Positions 12,662-41,416 of a DNA stretch of 41,697 nt are shown piece by piece. The position numbers and the translations under genes are program-made. The stretch is from a virus, in the IMG/VR virus record IMGVR_UViG_3300033153_006523, positions 1 through 41,697 of that record. One strand, 5' to 3'. A model generated the notes under the pieces. The model was not told where the DNA came from, searched no databases, and was given only the letters and a program-made list of their open reading frames with translations. Numbering within the stretch: position 1 is the first letter of the stretch; every line of letters begins with the position of its first letter.

Positions 12662-12880
12662 ATGGCTAAAGAAACACCAGCAGAATACATAGGGGACTTA
12701 ACAGTTGGTCAAGTTGCAGCTGCTATTAGGGGCGACTTAAAGCTTCTAAGTGAGGTGGTTGGAATTAAATTAGAAGAGGCGGAGGAGGGGAGCCCTGAAG
12801 GTAAAGAGTTAAAGAGAAACCTCGATTTAGCATATCGTCATTTAAATGATGCACGTATGTTGCTTAGTCTTGTGGAGTAG
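12662..12880 (+). CDS. Small helical protein, first gene of late operon
   Basis: The 72-residue protein is predicted to be mostly helix: DLTVGQVAAAIRGDLKLLSEVVG, written in part, then acidic LEEAEEGSPEGKELKRN and a final LDLAYRHLNDARMLLSLVE. The last helix resembles the end of the phage Acb2/Tad1-type family (DUF7681), which binds cyclic oligonucleotides to block CBASS. That likeness is weak and from memory. Other explanations are a small regulator or a chaperonin partner. It lies 33 bases upstream of the GroES-like gene. Confidence 0.6.
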   Translation: MAKETPAEYIGDLTVGQVAAAIRGDLKLLSEVVGIKLEEAEEGSPEGKELKRNLDLAYRHLNDARMLLSLVE

Positions 12881-12912
12881 GTCTATTTTTTAATATTTTT
12901 AATAAAAAACCA

Positions 12913-13176
12913 ATGAAAATTCTTGGCAAAAGAATACTTGTAGCAAAAGAGAAAATTGATTCAGGAGGAATGAGATTAGCTCCTGAGACAGAAAAGGATG
13001 GATTATCTAATTCAGGAATAGTTAAAGACGTTGGCAGCATAGGGTTGATTAATCACCTGAGAGGCCTCAGGAAGGGCTGCAAAGTGTATTTCAAAAAGCA
13101 TTTCATAACAAATTCAGGCAAAGGTGGCGAAGAGTTTGTTTTCGTTAATTTAGAAGATATCCTTTCAATAGAATAA
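12913..13176 (+). CDS. groES: GroES-like cochaperonin
   Basis: The 87-residue protein follows the GroES plan: an opening strand KILGKRILVAKEKI, a mobile-loop region (DSGGMRLAPETEKDGL) shorter and different from bacterial GroES, then SGIVKDVGSIG, RKGCKVYFKKHF and a C-terminal GGEEFVFVNLEDILSIE. Length fits GroES (about 95). It should form a seven-fold lid on the GroEL-like ring encoded 244 bases downstream. The altered mobile loop suggests pairing with the phage chaperonin rather than that of the host. Confidence 0.75.
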   Translation: MKILGKRILVAKEKIDSGGMRLAPETEKDGLSNSGIVKDVGSIGLINHLRGLRKGCKVYFKKHFITNSGKGGEEFVFVNLEDILSIE

Positions 13177-13179
13177 ATT

Positions 13180-13404
13180 ATGAAAGAATTTGATTGGGAA
13201 TTTGCTAAGAAAACCAGGAGCCCAAAACCTATTGAATGGCTATTTCTTAATAAAGATAAACCAATTTCTAAGGCAGGATATATTGAAGCAATGCAAGCTC
13301 TTAGGGAATCTCGAATAAGCAAGGGCAAAAATTATAGTCCAAATCGGCTAGGTAAGTCGTACGAATATCTTAAAAAAACATTTGGGTTTTTTCCCAACAA
13401 TTAA
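13180..13404 (+). CDS. Small hypothetical protein between groES and groEL
   Basis: The 74-residue basic protein MKEFDWEFAKKTRSPKPIEW continues with KDKPISKAGYIEAMQALRESR and ends in YEYLKKTFGFFPNN. It lies 3 bases after the GroES-like gene and 15 bases before the GroEL-like gene. A TTGGG-TTTTTT-CCCAA hairpin covers its last codons (13382-13397). I do not recognise a family. Its position suggests a chaperonin partner or regulator. Confidence 0.55.
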   Translation: MKEFDWEFAKKTRSPKPIEWLFLNKDKPISKAGYIEAMQALRESRISKGKNYSPNRLGKSYEYLKKTFGFFPNN

Positions 13405-13419
13405 TCTTAATTTTAATTC

Positions 13420-15051
13420 ATGAAAATTATCAAAAAGAAAATACATAATAAAGATTCTCGAAAAATAATGATGGAAGGAATAGACGAAATGTCTGATGTG
13501 GTCGGTTCTACTATGGGAGGTCGTGGACGCAATGTAATTTTAGACAAAGAATATGGTGCTCCTCTTGTGGTTAATGATGGAGTGACCATAATCCGTGAAA
13601 TTTTCTTTGAAGATAATCTCAAGAATGTTGCAGCACAGCTCATAAAGGATGCTGCTGTTCGTACCAATGATCTTGCAGGAGATGGGACTACTGGCGCGAC
13701 TATTTTAGCTCGTTCAATTGTGAAGCAGGGGTGGAAAGCTGTCGAAGAAGGGGCGAATCCTGTTGTATTGCGAAAAGAAATCGATGCTGCATCTGTTGAA
13801 GTTTTGAAGCAGCTGAAGAGTAATGTTGATAAAGTTGACAATGTATCGCAGGCCGTTCAAGTGGCAGCGGTATCTGTACAGGATGCACTTCTTGGTGAGC
13901 AGATTGGCAGCATGATGCACGGAATAGGCGTAAATGGAGCTGTTACTATAAAAAACTCAATTAAGCGTGGAGTTTATGTTGAAAAAGATGGTGGGATGAG
14001 AATAGAGGGGCAGTTAGTTGGAGGCGTGGTCGATAATCCTGATAAATGGGAAAGTCGCTTTGAGCACGCTAGAGTGTTAATTTTAAAGGATGAGCTCCAT
14101 GACCATGAGCTTGAATCTAAATGGATTCCATTAGTTAGGCAATTTGCAGAAGCTAATCCGCAAGGACAAATGCAGAAGGTTATTGTTCCTGCATTTATTG
14201 TAGTAGCTGAAAAATTACCTCGCCGAATGATTATGATGATGAATAGCAACAAGGATATTGTTAAGTGGGTATGGTTTAGACCCACAACTGCAGGTAAAAA
14301 TATGAAAGAAATTTACAAAGATATACAAAGTATGATCGGGGGCAAAGCTGCTGAAGAGGAAGAAGGAATATTTTTACAAAAAATGACAGTTGATGATCTT
14401 GGGACTTGTGAATCTGCGATTTGTGGTAGGCATGATGTTACTTTCACTGTTTCAGAAGAGCGTATGCAAAATAATGAATATTTAGATCGTGTTGTTGTTG
14501 CGAAAGAGCAGGTGGAGAATGCTGAGGATGAAGTTGAGCAAGAACAAATCAGAGATCGTTTAGCTAATTTGACTGGTGGAGTAGCAGTAATAAAAGTCGC
14601 CGCAGCTACGGACCAAGATACGCTTGAATTAAAACTCCGCATAGAAGATGCTATAAATGCTACAAGGGCAGCGATGGAAGAAGGCACGGTTGCTGGTGGG
14701 GGTGTTGCCTTAATGAATGCTTCAAAAATCCTCAAGGGTGTAACCAAGGGGGAAAAAGTACTGAAGGTAGCATGTGAGGCAGCTATAAGGCAGATACTTT
14801 ACAATGCTGGATATGAAGATGTTACAAAAATTCTTAAAGGTCTCGATGATGGTGAAGGAATAGATGTCCTATCAGGTAAAATTGGTGACATGAAAGAAAT
14901 GGGTATTATTGATCCTTTAAAGGTCGTTCGATTATTAATGGAGAACGCTGTAAGTGTTGCAGGGCTTCTACTCACGTCCGAGTTCGCTGTCACTGACGAA
15001 GAAGATGAAGCTGATGCGGTCAAGAGGTTCTTTACTCCCTCGAAAGAATGA
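13420..15051 (+). CDS. groEL: GroEL-like chaperonin (phage type)
   Basis: At 543 residues it has full GroEL length. ATPase motifs are kept: GGRGRNV at 33 to 39, NDGVTI with Asp53, LAGDGTTGATILA with Asp88, and RIEDAINATRAAMEEG with Asp410, then TVAGGGVAL. The C-terminal IIDPLKVVRLLMENAVSVAGLLL is also typical. The apical domain (about 185 to 370) is divergent: the APGFGDRR region is replaced by FRPTTAGKN. The tail lacks the GGM repeats. It folds proteins in an ATP-driven ring with GroES. Phage chaperonins are known mainly in large phages such as EL and OBP; here it sits beside the packaging genes. Confidence 0.95.
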   Translation: MKIIKKKIHNKDSRKIMMEGIDEMSDVVGSTMGGRGRNVILDKEYGAPLVVNDGVTIIREIFFEDNLKNVAAQLIKDAAVRTNDLAGDGTTGATILARSIVKQGWKAVEEGANPVVLRKEIDAASVEVLKQLKSNVDKVDNVSQAVQVAAVSVQDALLGEQIGSMMHGIGVNGAVTIKNSIKRGVYVEKDGGMRIEGQLVGGVVDNPDKWESRFEHARVLILKDELHDHELESKWIPLVRQFAEANPQGQMQKVIVPAFIVVAEKLPRRMIMMMNSNKDIVKWVWFRPTTAGKNMKEIYKDIQSMIGGKAAEEEEGIFLQKMTVDDLGTCESAICGRHDVTFTVSEERMQNNEYLDRVVVAKEQVENAEDEVEQEQIRDRLANLTGGVAVIKVAAATDQDTLELKLRIEDAINATRAAMEEGTVAGGGVALMNASKILKGVTKGEKVLKVACEAAIRQILYNAGYEDVTKILKGLDDGEGIDVLSGKIGDMKEMGIIDPLKVVRLLMENAVSVAGLLLTSEFAVTDEEDEADAVKRFFTPSKE

Positions 15052-15299
15052 TAAAAGTAACACCAGGAAAGAATAAGTTTGATATTGAATGTTCTTGTGG
15101 AAATAAAAAAGGTGACAAATTTGGTAAATATCTTTATAATAAAGTCGTTGAAGGTGAGCGCAAAAGAAAGATAGTAATTAAAAGAGAAGGATTAGCTTGT
15201 CTTCAATGCAAGAGAGTCTTATTGACTCAATCACAACTTGAACAACAATTAAATGACTCAAAAAGAAGTTTCGGAAAAGATTGGTGGAAAACCGATTAA
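15048..15299 (+). CDS. Zinc-ribbon-like small protein
   Basis: The 83-residue protein has ECSCGNKK near residue 15 and CLQCKRV near 51, a C-x-C plus C-x2-C pair typical of zinc ribbons, and is basic overall (KVVEGERKRKIVIKRE). The start overlaps the chaperonin stop as ATGATAA. It may bind nucleic acid. No function is assigned. Confidence 0.6.
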   Translation: MIKVTPGKNKFDIECSCGNKKGDKFGKYLYNKVVEGERKRKIVIKREGLACLQCKRVLLTQSQLEQQLNDSKRSFGKDWWKTD

Positions 15300-15300
15300 G

Positions 15301-16488
15301 ATGGAAATTCAACAAATTAAAATTGATGAGATTTTGCCATATGCCAAGAATGCAAAGAAGCACCCAAAGGAACAGGTCCAGAAAATAGCTCAGTCAATTA
15401 AAAGATTCGGATTTAAGCAGCCACTTGTAATTGATAAAAACAAGGTAGTTATTGTTGGACATGGACGATTCGAGGCAGCTAAGATGCTGGGGTTAAAAGA
15501 GCTCCCATGTTTATTGGCTGATGATCTTTCAGGAGAGGAAATAAAAGCTTATCGGCTTGTTGATAATAAATTAAATGAATCTGCTTGGGATATGGACTTG
15601 GCACTGCCAGAGTTAAAGTTGCTTGATATTGGATTGCAGGAATTGACTGGCTTTGATATGGATTTGCTTATTGAGCCAGACGAAAAAGATGATGAGGTGC
15701 CAGAGTTGCCAGAAGAGCCGAAGTCTAAACCTGGTGATATTTACCAACTCGGTAATCATAGAATAATGTGTGGAGATAGTACGAAGATTGAAGAAGTTGA
15801 AAAGTTAATGGATGGGAATAAGGCTGACTGTGTAGTAACTGATCCGCCATATAATACAGGGATGAAAGGGAAAGGGGTTACATTTGATTATGACTGGAGT
15901 AAGAAAAAAGAGAAAGCTCGGCTTTCTCATATGTTCAATGATCAAATAGAAAACTGGCCTCAATTCTTAAAAGATATATTTGCTAATTATTTTGCAGCAA
16001 CTAAGGGGCAGTGCGCTTTCTATGTGTTTATAGATTGGAGGAAGGTAGGTGATGTGCGGAGTGCAATAGAGGAAATTATGGACGTTAAGAATGTTATTGT
16101 TTGGGACAAGAAAGTTCACGGATTAGGCAGCGATTATAAATCTACTTATGAGTTGTGTATTGTAGGTAAGAAAGGTAAACCAGAAATACGCAATAGATTC
16201 GGTTTAGACTACCAAGATATATGGAGGCTGCAGAGAGAGATCGGAAGAAATGAGATGCATGCTACTGTTAAGCCTGTTAAGCCTGTTGAGCTACTAGAAA
16301 AACCTATCAAGCACGCAAGCAAAGAAGACGATATAATATTAGATTTATTTTTAGGCTCAGGCTCAACATTAATAGCAGCAGAGAAAACAAACAGAATATG
16401 CTACGGCATGGAAATTGATCCTAAATATATTGACGTTATTATAAAAAGATACGAGGACTATACTGGTAACAAAGCTAAGAAATTATGA
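15301..16488 (+). CDS. ParB-like domain fused to adenine-type DNA methyltransferase
   Basis: The ATG at 15301 is 1 base after the previous stop and begins the ParB-like domain, so I prefer it to the ATG at 15253. Residues 1 to 115 form the ParB/Srx-type nuclease-like domain (ILPYAKNAKKHPKEQ, SIKRFGFKQPLVID, VGHGRFEAAKML). Residues 145 to 395 are a beta-group methyltransferase with DPPYNTG at 181 to 187 and DLFLGSGSTLIAAE near 345 for SAM binding. Phages often carry this fusion. It probably modifies phage DNA against restriction, near the packaging genes. Confidence 0.85.
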   Translation: MEIQQIKIDEILPYAKNAKKHPKEQVQKIAQSIKRFGFKQPLVIDKNKVVIVGHGRFEAAKMLGLKELPCLLADDLSGEEIKAYRLVDNKLNESAWDMDLALPELKLLDIGLQELTGFDMDLLIEPDEKDDEVPELPEEPKSKPGDIYQLGNHRIMCGDSTKIEEVEKLMDGNKADCVVTDPPYNTGMKGKGVTFDYDWSKKKEKARLSHMFNDQIENWPQFLKDIFANYFAATKGQCAFYVFIDWRKVGDVRSAIEEIMDVKNVIVWDKKVHGLGSDYKSTYELCIVGKKGKPEIRNRFGLDYQDIWRLQREIGRNEMHATVKPVKPVELLEKPIKHASKEDDIILDLFLGSGSTLIAAEKTNRICYGMEIDPKYIDVIIKRYEDYTGNKAKKL

Positions 16489-18301: not shown

Positions 18302-20068
18302 ATGGCTGAAATAGCAACAGATAAGGCTAGAAGCGATAATGTCCAAGAAGCAATTAAGGAGCATGAAATTGATGATGTCAATATTCAGTCTTTTTTGCGT
18401 TTGATCTCACAAAATACACTTAATGATAAATCAGAAAGGGATACTAAGAACGAGTTGATACGTGCTTTATTTGAAGAGGGATTTAATGTTAACAATCCTT
18501 CTGGAACAAAAAAAATAGGATCAAAAGTAATTCAACAAGGTCTGTGGCGTGTGATGAGTAAGATAAAGTTTTTAAATTATACTATTCATGGTACTGGACA
18601 ATCGAGTTCAGTTGAAAGACTTGTTACTGAAGGCTTTGGCACTGTTGCGGATCGGGGAGAGCTCACTACATGCTTTAGGGACAAAGGTGGAGTTTTCCAG
18701 AATAGTTTCTTATATGGAAATGGATATTTGATGTTTGGCAAAGGCGAGAATGATGATAATCCAGTCACTTATAGAGTTTTAAGAAACGAAGACGTGTATG
18801 TGGATCATCTTGCTTTTGGTATTCGTGGAGTGCGGCCAGCAAATGAGATGGTAGTTATTTACGGATATGATAAGCAGGAAGCTTATGAATTGTGGCCAGA
18901 GCTTGAAGAAGAAGGGGTCATAGGTAGGATTCCTGGGACATATCAAGATCATAATAGGGAGTCAGATAGGGAAGAAGAAGATCTTCTTGAAGTAGCGTGG
19001 GGATACAATATTGCTAAACGTAAACACATTTCGTTTGCTGGGGTGCAAGCATATGAGCTGGATCGTTTTGAAGATGAAGAGTACCCATATGTTAAAAACA
19101 GCAAACCATATATCCCTGTATTCAATTTCTTATGTCAGCCGTCAGCTGATGGTTTCTTTGATCATGGAATTGGGGACATGTTCTACGAACTTGCCCTTAT
19201 AACCAGGAAACTTCTTAATATGGAGGTAGGACATATTGAAGAAAATGTTTATCCAATTACACTTATTAACGCTCCGCAATCTAAAGTTGACGAATTGGTT
19301 GAGAAGATGGCGATGGCTAACAAAGCTCGCGCAGCAGGACTTAAGCCTTTTGTTGCTCATGAATTTAGTACAAGCGGAGGTCAGCAAAGTGTAGGAGCTC
19401 AATCGCTTCTTACTCAAAATTTATTTAATGAGTGGCAAGCAGTTTGGGACAGACTTTATAAAGAAATGTCACGACTCGGAATTAATCTTGATGATGCTGA
19501 TCGTGGGAGTGGGTACACACGAGGACAAGTAATTGCAGAAGAAGAATCAAGCAACGCCTTCATCAAGCAAATGCAGGAGTACAATGCTTCTGAGACGCAG
19601 GAATTAATTGAATGCAGTTTAGATGCCATAACAGAATATGTCAGTACCAGGAACAAATCACCTTTGAATCTTATAACAAGAATTAAACTTGATGATGGAA
19701 CTACTGAAAGGTTGGATGAGGAAGTGACGATGGGGATGCTTTCAAAGACTCTCAAGAATGGTAACTGGTTTGCGGTAACAGATTCTAGAACAGGTGCGAT
19801 AACTTCTGATTTAATGAAAATGATTAAGTTGGAAGGACAAATGCAGATAACTGCACCTGGGACACCTGAATATTCTGAATTATATCGTGAATTAGCACAG
19901 CTTAGGGGATTGGATTTAGGGGAGAACAACCCAGCACCACCACCACCTGAAGCACCTCAAGAAGGAGCCCCAGAAGGAGCTCCACCGGGAAGCGCACCAA
20001 CACCGCCTCCTTCTGAAACCGAAAGAGTATTGCCGCCGCCTGTTAGTGGATTAGCACAACCAATATGA
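18302..20068 (+). CDS. Portal protein
   Basis: At 588 residues and directly after the large terminase, it has portal-like features: a helical N-terminus (VQEAIKEHEIDDVNIQSFL), a central KLLNMEVGHIEENVYPITLIN stretch (in part) and a long helical region, KMAMANKARAAGLKPFVAHE. It makes the ring through which DNA enters and leaves the head. The C-terminal 60 residues are rich in Pro/Ala/Gly/Glu (APPPPEAPQEG) and likely disordered. Its stop overlaps the next start as ATGA. Confidence 0.8.
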   Translation: MAEIATDKARSDNVQEAIKEHEIDDVNIQSFLRLISQNTLNDKSERDTKNELIRALFEEGFNVNNPSGTKKIGSKVIQQGLWRVMSKIKFLNYTIHGTGQSSSVERLVTEGFGTVADRGELTTCFRDKGGVFQNSFLYGNGYLMFGKGENDDNPVTYRVLRNEDVYVDHLAFGIRGVRPANEMVVIYGYDKQEAYELWPELEEEGVIGRIPGTYQDHNRESDREEEDLLEVAWGYNIAKRKHISFAGVQAYELDRFEDEEYPYVKNSKPYIPVFNFLCQPSADGFFDHGIGDMFYELALITRKLLNMEVGHIEENVYPITLINAPQSKVDELVEKMAMANKARAAGLKPFVAHEFSTSGGQQSVGAQSLLTQNLFNEWQAVWDRLYKEMSRLGINLDDADRGSGYTRGQVIAEEESSNAFIKQMQEYNASETQELIECSLDAITEYVSTRNKSPLNLITRIKLDDGTTERLDEEVTMGMLSKTLKNGNWFAVTDSRTGAITSDLMKMIKLEGQMQITAPGTPEYSELYRELAQLRGLDLGENNPAPPPPEAPQEGAPEGAPPGSAPTPPPSETERVLPPPVSGLAQPI

Positions 20069-20370
20069 TTAAAAAACTAAAAAGATATTTTAGATTAGCA
20101 TGCAGGTACAAAGATATACCGAAGAAAGAATTATTGAGTACGAATGAAGCATTGAAATATTTTGGAAAATTATGGGGAGATGATTTGAAGGGGGATACGA
20201 TGATGATGTTAGCAGTAATAGAGCACGAATATATAGCCGACGGAGTATATTCACCAGAAGAAGCAGCAGCAGTAAAACGAGTATTGGGGAAGGTAGGATT
20301 ATTTTTTAGAGATTGCAAGGAAGAGTGGGATGCTCATGAAGAAAGGCAGGCAAGAAAAGTTGGTCATTGA
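20065..20370 (+). CDS. Hypothetical structural-region protein, 101 aa
   Basis: The protein has a basic N-terminus (IKKLKRYFRLACRYKD) and helical middle and end (STNEALKYFGKLWGDDL, EAAAVKRVLGKVGLFF). Its ATGA overlap with portal suggests joint translation. It might be a head-assembly factor. Not recognised. Confidence 0.6.
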   Translation: MIKKLKRYFRLACRYKDIPKKELLSTNEALKYFGKLWGDDLKGDTMMMLAVIEHEYIADGVYSPEEAAAVKRVLGKVGLFFRDCKEEWDAHEERQARKVGH

Positions 20371-20371
20371 A

Positions 20372-20457
20372 AATTAGATAGATATTATTTGAGCTTTATA
20401 TGCTCGAAAGTCCTGCACAGTGCTTTCCAGCATGTAAGACTCAAATAGGGTCTAATT
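20372..20457 (+). promoter_or_regulatory. Long multi-segment hairpin before scaffold gene
   Basis: Four nested arm pairs line up in order: AATTAGA/TCTAATT (20372, 20451), ATTTGAG/CTCAAAT (20387, 20440), CTTTATATGC/GCATGTAAG with a bulge and a G-U pair (20394, 20430), and GAAAG/CTTTC (20406, 20423). The RNA would form one rod of about 86 bases in the 108-base gap. There is no strong U-tract. It could be a partial terminator, an RNase III-type processing site or a stability element that lets the capsid genes be expressed at a different level. Confidence 0.55.
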
Positions 20458-20478
20458 ATTATTTAACACCACCTATTT

Positions 20479-21150
20479 ATGGATGATACATCAACACACG
20501 GCGATGATGATTCTCAAGACAAAGACCTTGATCTTGAAGACACAGATGCCGATGAAGGCGATGATACACCTGCAGACACTGAGGATAACTCAGATGATCC
20601 CAAGGCGGATGATGCAGCTCAAGAGGCAAAAGAACGTCAGAAGAAAGCTTGGCTCTCTAACCTTAGAGACGGCAAGAAAACTATAGACGATATGCCTAAA
20701 AACCTCGAATGGCTTAAAAAGGATAAGGAATTCGATGAATTCCGAGATTCTAAAAAGGAAAAGAAGCCTGAAAAAAAGCTTGAAGTCGAGGACGATGAAC
20801 TTGATAGCAGAGTCCGTAAAACCCTAAAGTCTGAACGTGAAGCTGAAAACTTAGAATTTCTTATTGAAGGGCTGGAAGATATGGAAATAGATTCCGAAAC
20901 TGACGCCTTACTACAAGAAGAGTATGAAGCTTTGAGAGCTGATGGCCTGTCTAAATATAAGGCACTCACCATGGCGTGTAGACTTGCGGGAATAAAAGAC
21001 ATTCAAACGATTGTTGCTGAAAGGAGACGCAAAGGTATGACTTTGCCACCTCGTGGAAGCAAGAGACGTAAGACTATAGTTAAAAAGGGTGGCAACACCG
21101 AGATGGAGACAAAATTCATGAAGAATTTGCCTCCGGGATATAAATCTTAA
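20479..21150 (+). CDS. Scaffolding protein-like
   Basis: The first 55 residues are strongly acidic (DDTSTHGDDDSQDKDLDLED). The middle is charged and helical (SRVRKTLKSEREAENLEFLI), and the C-terminus is basic (RGSKRRKTIVKKGGN), as in scaffolding proteins that bind the capsid protein by their basic end. It is just upstream of the decoration and capsid genes. It should guide procapsid assembly. Assignment is by composition and position. Confidence 0.65.
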   Translation: MDDTSTHGDDDSQDKDLDLEDTDADEGDDTPADTEDNSDDPKADDAAQEAKERQKKAWLSNLRDGKKTIDDMPKNLEWLKKDKEFDEFRDSKKEKKPEKKLEVEDDELDSRVRKTLKSEREAENLEFLIEGLEDMEIDSETDALLQEEYEALRADGLSKYKALTMACRLAGIKDIQTIVAERRRKGMTLPPRGSKRRKTIVKKGGNTEMETKFMKNLPPGYKS

Positions 21151-21161
21151 CAATAACTAAC

Positions 21162-21572
21162 ATGGATTTTGAAATAGTCGATAAAGGGCCGAGTTATAGT
21201 ACTTTGATATGCACAATTGCAACTGCTGTAGTTATTGAAGCTGGAGATATGATTGAGTATGCTTCTGGGCTGCCTGTGAAGGCTACCGCTACAGGAGCTA
21301 AACTTGCATATTCCCCAGCTGCATCAGCTAATGGAGATACGCAAATTGAATTATCAGTAGGAAATGACTTTACCGTCAAAGGGACAGGGGAAGCGGTATT
21401 TGCCGTTGACCAAAAAGGAGACGCTGTTGATTTGGTTGTTGATACTAATGTTCAGTTAATCGATAACGATACGACATCAACTTCAGTATTTATAGTGGAT
21501 GTATCAGAAAACGCGGGGACAGTTGGGTCTACTTCTGATATTCGAGCTAAAATTGCATTGCCGATATATTAA
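21162..21572 (+). CDS. Head decoration/stabilisation protein-like
   Basis: The 136-residue protein is beta-rich with a DUF2190-like opening: TATAVVIEAGDMIEYASGLPVKA, then SPAASANGDTQIELSVGNDF and DVSENAGTVGSTSDIRAKIAL (both in part). Such proteins bind the outside of the capsid lattice. It is placed directly before the major capsid gene. The stop is followed by the TAATCTTTAAC motif found at other joins. Confidence 0.6.
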   Translation: MDFEIVDKGPSYSTLICTIATAVVIEAGDMIEYASGLPVKATATGAKLAYSPAASANGDTQIELSVGNDFTVKGTGEAVFAVDQKGDAVDLVVDTNVQLIDNDTTSTSVFIVDVSENAGTVGSTSDIRAKIALPIY

Positions 21573-21591
21573 TCTTTAACCGTAAACAATT

Positions 21592-22524
21592 ATGACTAGT
21601 GCAGATTACGCTTTGCAGGCGGTGAAAGGGGTTAAGAAATCTTTTGATAACGCATTGCAAAATAAATTATCGGAGTATATGAAACAAGGTTACTTAAAGT
21701 TTTATCGAACTTCTGAAGTTTCTGAAATCTATACTTCAACGGAAGGTATGAGCGGAGTTACAGAGCTTTCTGAGGAAGGTACGCCTCCATCATTGAAGCT
21801 AGAAGACGGTTTCAGTGTGACAATCACTGAAAAACGTTTTGGTGGAGCGATTATAATTCCTGAAAAAGTATATAGACGTGACGGAAGAGATAACTCTCTT
21901 AAGGTAGATACATTCCTCACAAGACAACGTAATCAGTTGCTGATTACAAACACCCATAAGATGGTTACAAACGCGCATCTTATGTACAACGAAGCGTTTA
22001 GTAGCGGGTCAATTTATCTTGCACCTGATTCAGTAGAAATATGTGGAGCGCATACGTGGGCAAGTGGAGATACGTTCGACAACGGCATCACGAATTCTCT
22101 TGATAGTGATGAGGTCGATACTGCCTGGGATTATGCTGGTGCATTTACTGATCCAGCGGGGAAAGAGATGCCTTTGAACTGGACAACTATTGTTGTCAAG
22201 AAAGGTTCAGAAGCAAGTCGTGAAGCTCTGAGGCTTTTTGCTAAAGAGATTACACCGACTGCCATAAACGATATCAATCTTTACGAAGGGGAATTGACAG
22301 TTGTTGAAACTCCATACGTTACTGCAACGAACAAGCTTAACTGGTTTATGCTTGATTTATCAATGTACGATAGTCCTCTCTGCGTAGGTATTGGGGAATA
22401 TCCTACATTGCGTGAACCGATTAAGGAATCAAATGAAGCTATTCGCAGTAACTGTACTGGGTTCTGGAAACAAGGTGTTGTTAATATGCCTTTCCAAATT
22501 TATGGAAGTACGGGCGCTACTTAG
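21592..22524 (+). CDS. Major capsid protein (HK97-fold-like)
   Basis: The 310-residue protein starts with a helical arm (QAVKGVKKSFDNALQNKL), then EGMSGVTELSEEGTPPS and VTITEKRFGGAIIIPEKV, which match the E-loop and P-domain style of HK97-like proteins related to Mu gpT. The TNTHKMVTNAHLMYNEAF helix and the C-terminal ESNEAIRSNCTGFWKQGV support it. It follows scaffold and decoration genes. A stable hairpin lies right after it. It should be the most abundant phage protein. Confidence 0.85.
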   Translation: MTSADYALQAVKGVKKSFDNALQNKLSEYMKQGYLKFYRTSEVSEIYTSTEGMSGVTELSEEGTPPSLKLEDGFSVTITEKRFGGAIIIPEKVYRRDGRDNSLKVDTFLTRQRNQLLITNTHKMVTNAHLMYNEAFSSGSIYLAPDSVEICGAHTWASGDTFDNGITNSLDSDEVDTAWDYAGAFTDPAGKEMPLNWTTIVVKKGSEASREALRLFAKEITPTAINDINLYEGELTVVETPYVTATNKLNWFMLDLSMYDSPLCVGIGEYPTLREPIKESNEAIRSNCTGFWKQGVVNMPFQIYGSTGAT

Positions 22525-32174: not shown

Positions 32175-34502
32175 ATGGGCAATGCAACAAAATTTCCTAC
32201 AATAGCAGAATTGGTATTATATCAATGGTCAAGGAAGGGCGCTCCATCTCCTAAGCTAGGAGCTCCTATTAGTGCCACTGCAACAACATTAACTTTTACA
32301 TCAGCCCTGAAGGATGAGACTGGAACTGTTATTGCAGGAAAGGCTTTTCCACTTGGTATCAAAAAAGCGAATAATTGGACTGAGACATGTCTCGTGACAA
32401 GTGGGATACTCCTGTATGATGCGCAGTCGGCTAATTTTACAGTAGGTGATATTTTAACTGGTGGGACGAGTGGAGCAACAGCTCTGATTGTTGAAGATAC
32501 TGATTCTGGAGCTACAGGAACATTAAATTTAATAGTAACGTCTGGAACATTCCAAAATAACGAAACAGTAACAGATTCTGCAGGAGGAAGTGCAACATCC
32601 AATGGGACATTGACTAATTCGGTTAGTGCAGATGGATTGACGGCTTCTAACGTAATTCGTGGTATAGATCCAGGGGGTTATGATTATACTGTTGGAGATA
32701 CAGATTTTGCTGATACTCATTTGGCTGATGAGCCTGTGTTTTGCAATATACCTGCATTTGTTCCAGAATTAATACGGTCTGTATTGCAAGGATTAATAGC
32801 TACTGGTGCTTCTGATCTCATTATTGGTATAGATATAGCTGGAACAGTTACCGTGAGTAGAAGTACTGGAGTGGGTACAAAGGCTGAATTTATTAGATGG
32901 AGTTCGGTTAATTCTAAAGTAGAATATTCAAACAATGGATCTGCATGGACAGCGATTGATGATACTGTCGCGAGTGTGCTATTCAAAGTTAGTTCAAACG
33001 ACACTACTCCTGGCTATTTAAATGGAAAAGCCGTTGGTGGTGACGGAATTGGTCTTACGGAGAATAATGATGGTGGAGATGAGACTTTGACGTGGGCGGC
33101 AGTGGTTGCAGATTTCGCGGGTGACGGAATCGAAGATGATGGATCAAACAATTTACAAACTTCATTTCCTCCTGATGGAGGACTTGAATTCAGTTCTAAT
33201 AAATTGAGAGTAAAAGTAAAAGCAGATAGTGGAATAACAAGAGATTCTGATGGAATATCTTTAACAGATGCTTACGATCCAACAAGAGAATTTACGGCTT
33301 ATGAAGCAGTAACAGCAGATCAAGCTGTAGCACTTCTGCCTATTGAAGTCCAATGGTATGACCAGTTGGCGGAAGCAGATTTAGCGCTTGGGGACGATAA
33401 TGCTAGACGTAAATATGCAATAAAAATTATTCCATCAGTTACATCTTCAACATTAACAACGATGTTATTTCGAGGGAATGAAATCGTTGGGGCTTCAACA
33501 TTAACTCTTACGATTTCTATCCAAGGAGACAATGCGGGTGAACCTGATGGATCTGCAATTACAAATGGAACAGCAAATACAATTGATGTTTCAACTTGGA
33601 CAACGAATTATGCTAGTAGGACAGCTACATGGGCAGCTGCGCCTACATTAACAGCAGGCACGACTTACTGGTTAGTATTTGAAGTAGATGGAACTGAAGC
33701 TGCCCAGGGAATAAATCTTGGAGACAATAGTACATATGATGAAAACTATCTTACATTCACACGATTAACATATGATTTGGATGCTGGCACTTGGGGGAAT
33801 TCTGCAACAAATGCGACACCATTCTTTTGGTTTAATACTCAATTAGTTTTACTTGGGATGGGTCTTTGTCCAACAGATGCTAGTTGGGGGGGCAGAACAT
33901 GGCCATTTGTAGGATTCGCGAGAGCCAATATTTCAGCGAATGCCACTGGTGATGTTTATGGGGATACTGTTCCAGGATTAAGTTTAACGCCTGGTCTGCC
34001 TTATTATCTTTCAGCAACTCCGGGAGTAATTACTCCAACTGCACCTTCTAGTTTCTATGATGGTGTAACAGCCCCAACAGATTTCACATATAGAGTTGGA
34101 AGGGCGGAAGATACTACTAATTTAAAAATAGAAAAAGGGCAAAAGAGGGTATTAATAAAAGAAACAGGTGCAGCGATTACTGCAAATACGACAAGGCAGT
34201 ATATAACATGGTTCAAGCCAGAAGTTATACGAGTTTCAGGAGTGCAAACGGGTGGAAGTAATTCGTCTATATCGGCAGGATTAGTAACTGCAGGAGCGAT
34301 TGATTCTGGGGTAGGAATGACGTATGATAATGCAGCAGCAGGGGCGGTAACCTCAGACGATACAAGATCTATAGTTGAGGACCCCACCGAGGGAAATGAT
34401 ATTGTTGGTGCAGCTTCTGGGTTTACTACGGCAGGGTTCACTTACACTTATACGGAAACTGGAACGTCTTCGCTTTTTGCATTATTAGAAGCAATACAAT
34501 AA
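32175..34502 (+). CDS. Large tail fibre-like protein
   Basis: The 775-residue protein is Gly/Thr/Asp-rich and beta-type. Fibre-like features are LTFTSALKDETGTVIAGKAF, SGATALIVEDTDSGATGTLN, GDGIGLTENNDGGDETLTW, and ANSDGISLTD-type turns. The N-terminus (FPTIAELVLYQWSRKGAP) may bind the nozzle. The C-terminal quarter (KRVLIKETGAAITANTTRQY) may be the trimerising tip. It probably recognises the host. Confidence 0.6.
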   Translation: MGNATKFPTIAELVLYQWSRKGAPSPKLGAPISATATTLTFTSALKDETGTVIAGKAFPLGIKKANNWTETCLVTSGILLYDAQSANFTVGDILTGGTSGATALIVEDTDSGATGTLNLIVTSGTFQNNETVTDSAGGSATSNGTLTNSVSADGLTASNVIRGIDPGGYDYTVGDTDFADTHLADEPVFCNIPAFVPELIRSVLQGLIATGASDLIIGIDIAGTVTVSRSTGVGTKAEFIRWSSVNSKVEYSNNGSAWTAIDDTVASVLFKVSSNDTTPGYLNGKAVGGDGIGLTENNDGGDETLTWAAVVADFAGDGIEDDGSNNLQTSFPPDGGLEFSSNKLRVKVKADSGITRDSDGISLTDAYDPTREFTAYEAVTADQAVALLPIEVQWYDQLAEADLALGDDNARRKYAIKIIPSVTSSTLTTMLFRGNEIVGASTLTLTISIQGDNAGEPDGSAITNGTANTIDVSTWTTNYASRTATWAAAPTLTAGTTYWLVFEVDGTEAAQGINLGDNSTYDENYLTFTRLTYDLDAGTWGNSATNATPFFWFNTQLVLLGMGLCPTDASWGGRTWPFVGFARANISANATGDVYGDTVPGLSLTPGLPYYLSATPGVITPTAPSSFYDGVTAPTDFTYRVGRAEDTTNLKIEKGQKRVLIKETGAAITANTTRQYITWFKPEVIRVSGVQTGGSNSSISAGLVTAGAIDSGVGMTYDNAAAGAVTSDDTRSIVEDPTEGNDIVGAASGFTTAGFTYTYTETGTSSLFALLEAIQ

Positions 34503-40411: not shown

Positions 40412-41416
40412 GTGAAAAAAGCACTCCCACAAAATGTAGCGCAATTTGAAAAGAATCCTTACAGAAAAAAGCGCAGCATATATCATTCCAAAAAGGGTCA
40501 TACAGGGCGAGATTTGAGATACGATGTAGGTGACGTGCTTCTTTCGCCTATTACTGGTACAGTTGTTAGAATTCTTGATCAGAAGCAGATGGGGCGCTGT
40601 ATGTATATTAAGCATCACGCTACTGGCGATATACATGTATTTGCTCACAATAGAGCTTTCCTTGTTAAAGTGGGCGATGATGTTTCAAGATTGCAAGAAA
40701 TTATTGTAACAGGAAATACTGGTACGGCAACTTCGGCCCCTCACGTCCATTATGAAATAATTACTGAGGAGCCTATCAATGTAGAAGATAAAATAATGAC
40801 ACGTAGCTTGGCAGGATTTGTTGGGTACAACACCAACCCGCACAAAAGACTGAAGGAGTTGTATGAATTGCATAATATTGATTTTGAAACAGGCAAACGC
40901 AAAATCATACTTTATCCAGCTTGGCTAAATAATATAATTAAAAGAATATTTTACCCCATATCCGTGCCAGATTCTCATAGAATAAAGAAAGTTAAACAAT
41001 TGAAGCAAGGCTCATCTAATGCATGTAGTGTATATGCATGTTTGCACGCTTTATTGGTGATAGGCAAGCTCGGTAATTTAAAAGGAGCAGAGATTCACAA
41101 GGCGATACTTCTCAAAAGGTACGACAAGTACGATCCTTGGAGAAGCGTATCTACCATAGAAGTATTGAAATATTTAAAAGAGCGTGGGTACATACGCAAA
41201 TACAGGAAAATCAGAAACTCTCTTGGGAATTTTAGAATTAAGATATTTACAGGTCACCCCATAATCGCATCCATCCAGGCGACTAATATGTCGCATGCTG
41301 TGTGTATCAATGAATATAACGAAAAAGAGTTTATAGCGTTGGATTCCAATAGCTACAAAAAGATGGCCATAAAAGATTTCGATACAATAAAAGATTCTTA
41401 TATTTTATTTGTATAG
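40412..41416 (+). CDS. Two-peptidase endolysin: M23 plus papain-like (C39-type) domain
   Basis: The start codon is GTG. Residues 25 to 120 form an M23 zinc peptidase: HTGRD with His30 and Asp34, VFAHN with His79, and HVHYE with His111 and His113; these residues bind zinc and cut peptide cross-links. Residues 195 to 334 look like a C39/papain-type cysteine peptidase: Gln199, GSSNACSVYACLHALL with Cys205, MSHAVCINEY with His295, and ALDSNS with Asp311 or Asn313. The pair in one protein is unusual for an endolysin. No signal peptide is seen, so it needs a holin. Confidence 0.75.
   Translation: MKKALPQNVAQFEKNPYRKKRSIYHSKKGHTGRDLRYDVGDVLLSPITGTVVRILDQKQMGRCMYIKHHATGDIHVFAHNRAFLVKVGDDVSRLQEIIVTGNTGTATSAPHVHYEIITEEPINVEDKIMTRSLAGFVGYNTNPHKRLKELYELHNIDFETGKRKIILYPAWLNNIIKRIFYPISVPDSHRIKKVKQLKQGSSNACSVYACLHALLVIGKLGNLKGAEIHKAILLKRYDKYDPWRSVSTIEVLKYLKERGYIRKYRKIRNSLGNFRIKIFTGHPIIASIQATNMSHAVCINEYNEKEFIALDSNSYKKMAIKDFDTIKDSYILFV

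Follow-up and report, generated by a model that had tools for sequence, protein, structure and literature searches.

Phage lambda relies on the host GroEL-GroES chaperonin (PMC9598537), and a number of other phages carry part or all of such a system in their own genomes. T4 gp31 and RB49 CocO are phage lids that replace GroES for capsid folding (PMC9598537) and are used with the host ring, and a lid is also carried by the Pseudoalteromonas siphovirus B8b (PMC4294664). Phage-encoded GroEL-like rings have been described from the giant phages EL (gp146) and OBP (gp246) of Pseudomonas and AR9 (gp228) of Bacillus, and these rings are reported to need no lid in order to function (PMC7185714, PMC9598537). 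The combination of lid and ring in one phage is on record as well (PMC7185714, with reference to a survey of virioplankton chaperonins), and among Bacteroidetes phages a GroEL gene is carried by 36 genomes of the phi38:1 group that come from environmental samples (PMC5332604). Flavobacterium elemoviruses, podoviruses of about 60 kb, have adjacent GroEL and GroES genes, the 72.5-kb Cellulophaga calleviruses (phi40:1, phi38:1, Calle_1) have GroES, a small ORF and then GroEL, and the small TM7 phage DolZOral124_53_65 (38.8 kb) has a Cpn60 gene close to a point where the coding strand changes. Two GenBank records labelled 'phage', L002 (MT835992.1) and L109 (CAKLQH020000021.1), appear from their gene content to be bacterial chromosome around a bacterial groESL operon and were left out of these precedents; they would mislead counts of phage chaperonins.

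The window analysed here is the whole of the linear IMG/VR record IMGVR_UViG_3300033153_006523, 41,697 bases long, in which no terminal repeats of at least 15 nt were found within 2 kb of the record ends. An earlier sequence-only reading had described a podovirus-like genome of about 42 kb with a late promoter ahead of a chaperonin module. The size is the length of the linear record, for which no completeness is stated, and no tail-type marker was found in the window. The late promoter is not supported, since promoter-like matches occur at chance level, with 19 of the sigma-70-like type where 19.6 are expected and 8 of the Bacteroidota type where 9.5 are expected. A leftward early block, encoding a recombination exonuclease, Sak4-like and DnaD-like proteins and HNH endonucleases, faces a rightward late block headed by four co-directional ORFs of 72, 87, 74 and 543 aa, whose positions had been given correctly. 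The features of this leading part are as follows.

12662 to 12880, plus strand: 72-aa predicted helical hairpin, an orphan (AF2 pLDDT 88.6; helices 6-11, 15-39 and 45-71)
12913 to 13176, plus strand: GroES-like co-chaperonin (lid), 87 aa (Pfam Cpn10, identity to relatives' GroES)
13180 to 13404, plus strand: 74-aa orphan between GroES and GroEL (homologue searches negative)
13420 to 15051, plus strand: GroEL-like group I chaperonin (ring), 543 aa (Pfam, PHROG, AF2 model, ATPase residues)
approximately 14128 to 14190, plus strand: apical helix H of GroEL, followed by the insert peculiar to the clade (GroEL alignment, AF2 strands)
14995 to 15048, plus strand: C-terminal tail, EEDE...VKRFF, replacing the GGM repeats (alignment)

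Beyond GroEL come two short ORFs, of 83 and 69 aa, with a ParB–methyltransferase fusion between them, and then the genes for both terminase subunits, small and large. The fusion (15253-16488) joins a ParB N-terminal domain to an N4/N6 DNA methyltransferase, and a relative with 45% identity is present in L027. In-frame codon usage is coding-like for all four leading ORFs, at 0.29 (72 aa), 0.17 (GroES), 0.22 (74 aa) and 0.29 (GroEL) bits per codon, with one antisense frame slightly outscoring that of GroES. At the right end of the window a 334-aa ORF (40412-41416, plus strand) overlaps minus-strand ORFs and has a codon score near zero (0.045).

Phage GroES/GroEL pairs, and a 38.8-kb phage with GroEL alone, are thus already known, and what is found here is a divergent small-genome variant. 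The window pair shares domain order, fold, ATPase residues, adjacent groS-groL order and the mobile-loop core with the GroEL-GroES of E. coli and the Bacteroidota, but its ring is only 33-38% identical to those proteins, has a beta-hairpin insert in the apical domain, lacks Tyr199, Ser201 and Tyr203 and ends in a VKKFF-type tail instead of GGM. The elemoviruses differ in that GroEL precedes GroES, the orientation is opposite to that of the neighbouring annotated genes and the ring is about 30% identical, whereas in the calleviruses the chaperonins are found among the replication genes, next to those for DNA polymerase and exonucleases, and the ring is about 33% identical to that of the window. 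In the TM7 phage GroES is not annotated and the ring is 23.5% identical, whilst the match of the EL chaperonin to the window ring is confined to the initial part of the latter.

The 543-aa protein is a complete group I chaperonin in which the fold and the ATPase residues are kept. It matches Pfam Cpn60_TCP1 (PF00118) over residues 25-520 (E 1.2e-44, 153 bits against a cut-off of 34.3), and its best PHROG is PHROG 5725 (phrog_5725), 'chaperonin groEL', over residues 5-530 (E 2.6e-97). An AF2 model built from eight sequences (pLDDT 83.5) has the three-domain fold, and its top matches among solved structures are all GroEL/Hsp60, with Z about 42 over 510 residues (42.5 over 510 residues for GroEL 4ki8). 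The built-in apical lid of group II chaperonins is missing from the model, the apical insert being a short hairpin and not the group II helical protrusion. The retention of the ATPase residues Asp53, Asp88 and Asp410, claimed at the outset from the letters, was confirmed by alignment with E. coli K-12 GroEL, used as reference alongside host GroELs, in which they correspond to Asp52, Asp87 and Asp398, Ser152 to Ser151 and Asp498 to Asp495; the ATP-site residues retained comprise Thr31, Asp53, GDGTT (87-91), Ser152, Asp410, Gly427 and Asp498.

As a single-protein query against IMG/VR the window GroEL returned nothing, but a two-member profile, made from the window and a fragment (L009) whose GroEL is 62% identical to that of the window, recovered two intact relatives, L101 (GroEL 56%; 39.4-kb record G052) and L102 (GroEL 59%; 21.6-kb record). 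In L009:1-241 the GroEL homology has a sharp onset at residue 90, the sequence ahead of that point being unrelated, and this fragment is possibly an assembly chimera. Across the four-phage clade the E. coli residues Tyr199, Ser201 and Tyr203 of the apical substrate and lid surface are lost, so substrate binding must differ from that of E. coli GroEL. The positions of Phe204, Leu234, Leu237, Leu259 and Val264 are still hydrophobic, Phe204 itself being swapped for other hydrophobics, Asn265 is retained and the position of Val263 is variable. The insert after helix H is modelled as a beta-hairpin at about residues 243-254 (AF2 strands 243-245 and 251-254). The tail of the clade ends in EED...VK(K/R)FF, of which VK(K/R)FF is conserved in all four members, and the GGM repeats are absent, whilst the inter-ring positions vary within the clade. 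The apical domain had thus rightly been called changed and the GGM tail rightly called missing.

It might be supposed that such a locus is a recent capture of a host groESL operon with no specific virion role. The fold and ATPase residues are of the bacterial group I type, and the best pairwise matches of the ring are bacterial GroELs, at 36-38% identity. However, in a tree of 35 proteins the four clade phages form one group (support 100%) that lies outside every sampled Bacteroidota GroEL and is set off by a very long stem of 1.81 changes per site, although several other phage rows are also long-branched and the deeper placement of the clade is unsure. The insert and tail are moreover specific to the clade and conserved within it, and the position ahead of the head block is retained across phages with different terminases, so that recent capture appears highly improbable.

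The 87-aa protein is a real phage co-chaperonin. It scores above the family cut-off for Pfam Cpn10 (PF00166) over residues 2-86 (E 2.3e-5, 24.7 bits against 21.1), it is 51-52% identical to the GroES of L102 and 38-41% identical to that of L101, and a profile of the phage GroES set finds solved GroES structures. The mobile loop had been described as changed, and its letters do differ (GGMRL in the window, GGIRL in L102, GGLKM in L101 and GGIVL in E. coli), but the docking core, GG-hydrophobic-x-hydrophobic, is retained. The proposal that the late block opens with a lid-plus-ring pair borne by the phage is supported.

The sequence-only reading went further and proposed a four-gene module, in which the 72-aa and 74-aa proteins would be dedicated partners acting as adaptors of the ring. 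The coding-like codon use of the two small ORFs is in keeping with this, as is the tight spacing of the 74-aa gene, which is flanked by gaps of 3 nt on the GroES side and 15 nt on the GroEL side, and in the Cellulophaga calleviruses small ORFs occupy the same positions. Set against this, in L101 and L102 the end of GroES lies 8-11 nt ahead of the GroEL start codon with no intervening ORF, and a search through the complete records of the three nearest relatives with GroEL gave no match to the 72-aa or the 74-aa protein, a result which, with two relatives intact here, shows the rarity of the small genes better than their absence. Failure to find the small genes beside chaperonins in related phages was the outcome that the sequence-only reading had itself named as fatal to the module. 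The arrangement of small gene, GroES, small gene and GroEL in phi40:1 and Calle_1 is a look-alike order, the small proteins of phi40:1 being non-homologous to those of the window. For neither small protein was a homologue found in Pfam, in PHROGs, in a pattern scan of IMG/VR or, above noise, among GenBank phages. Ring adaptors are thus distinctly improbable, and judged from gene order and comparison of relatives the conserved unit is the GroES–GroEL pair and not a four-gene module, the small genes being probably later local additions that stand outside it and are not working parts.

A fold search with the model of the 72-aa hairpin gave no significant match. The idea that it might be a nucleotide sponge like Acb2 or Vs.4 is not supported, there being no Pfam match and the comparison with T4 Vs.4 (Foldseek E 3.2, Z 7.2, rmsd 8.9, 67 residues aligned) falling in the noise range for helical hairpins.

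An important consideration in attempting to establish what the pair might fold is the set of genes with which it has been inherited. The late block includes a head block with the following features.

18302 to 20068, plus strand: putative portal, 58-65% identical in GroEL-bearing relatives (role from order and size)
20479 to 21150, plus strand: acidic scaffold-like protein, 43-51% identical in GroEL-bearing relatives
21162 to 21572, plus strand: 136-aa protein, 58-65% identical in GroEL-bearing relatives
21592 to 22524, plus strand: putative major capsid protein, 72-77% identical in GroEL-bearing relatives (role from order and size)
18302 to 22524, plus strand: head block, portal to capsid, apparently co-inherited with the chaperonins (identities in relatives)

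A clear family match was found for neither the portal nor the capsid gene. The 39.4-kb record G052 resembles the window in GroES (38-41%), GroEL (56%), portal (58%), scaffold-like protein (43%) and capsid (72%), and several tail-region proteins are also held in common, so that nearly the whole portal-to-tail block is represented. The terminase of G052, in contrast, differs from that of the window, and the two have hardly any early genes in common. As G052 keeps the chaperonins and virion genes but not the terminase, the terminase would seem to have been exchanged while the others stayed together. A separate scan of IMG/VR with a portal profile found exactly three records (L009, L101 and L102), all three carrying this GroEL clade, whereas none of the other terminase relatives, which are without this head block, carry it. 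GroEL identity (56-62%) tracks portal identity (58-65%). In the closest relatives the pair therefore appears to be inherited with the virion genes, on the evidence of few records, two of them intact relatives and some retrieved via GroEL itself. That the pair goes with the virion genes, and neither with the terminase nor with the early genes, is the chief ground for taking virion proteins to be its clients. In the tail region the protein encoded at 32175-34502 has a short match to the N-terminal part of avian adenovirus fibre (E 4.8e-5, 29 residues), which is probably a simple repeat-like motif.

The reading that we consider likely is that the pair constitutes a phage-owned group I GroES–GroEL folding chamber for virion proteins, the small genes being later insertions. 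A seven-fold GroEL ring would bind unfolded virion proteins of the late block, the major capsid protein, the portal or tail proteins being the likeliest candidates, the phage GroES and ATP would close the chamber, and the client, with ATP hydrolysis as the driving force, would fold separately from the host's chaperonin and then be released. We infer that the ring assembles and hydrolyses ATP, that the lid encoded here works with it, and which proteins are the clients. Since the rings of EL, OBP and AR9 are reported to work lid-free, the dependence of the window ring on a lid is not given, and the chief rival explanation is that this ring too acts independently of a lid, while the phage GroES would act on the GroEL of the host. 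The loss of Tyr199, Ser201 and Tyr203 together with the apical insert would fit such a ring, as would the existence of three terminase relatives with GroES in which no GroEL was detected. Nevertheless, the lid adjoins the ring in both intact relatives, lid and ring have diverged together (52% and 59% respectively in L102, 41% and 56% in L101), and Asn265 and hydrophobic residues at the Leu234, Leu237, Leu259 and Val264 positions are retained, which makes a lid-independent ring unlikely. A more specific extension of the folding-chamber reading, which we put forward tentatively as a possibility with the odds somewhat against it, is that of a dedicated virion-folding chamber, in which lid and ring would have co-evolved away from the host pair, with an apical hairpin, changes in the surface that meets the substrate and a hydrophobic VKKFF tail where GGM would otherwise stand, and would serve only this head type, moving with the head genes as one unit.

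The locus links a phage-owned chaperonin to one virion module at about 40 kb, a size at which most phages use the host chaperonin. The small and defined head block offers a tractable system in which to ask which phage proteins need a chaperonin, and the pair allows one to ask how ring and lid diverge jointly from the host pair.

The wider distribution of chaperonins was followed through a set of 50 records whose terminase is related to that of the window, at 57-77% identity. GroEL was present in eight of these and Cpn10 above the family cut-off in three. The GroELs belong to several lineages that are 26-31% identical to that of the window, L009 (62%) being the exception, and they often sit just upstream of the terminase, which suggests that chaperonin genes have been acquired repeatedly at this locus by small phages of this terminase type. 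The combination of lid and ring had been called unusual in a genome of this size, and the genome here is indeed smaller than that of any isolated phage known to carry both, but the term is too strong, since other small phages with this type of terminase have GroELs of several lineages ahead of it. Four such lineages, 26-29% identical to that of the window, lie directly upstream of the same terminase type in L032, L040, L043 and L052. A second small-genome lid-ring pair occurs in one of the eight, the 34.5-kb record G046 (L090:1170-1430 and L089), where an 86-aa GroES-like ORF missed by Pfam overlaps the start of a divergent GroEL. Three terminase relatives (G014, G039 and G015; L098, L099 and L100) have a GroES-like gene with no GroEL detected, one of these genes being near the terminase gene and another beside a capsid-like gene, an arrangement that recalls the T4 gp31 strategy.
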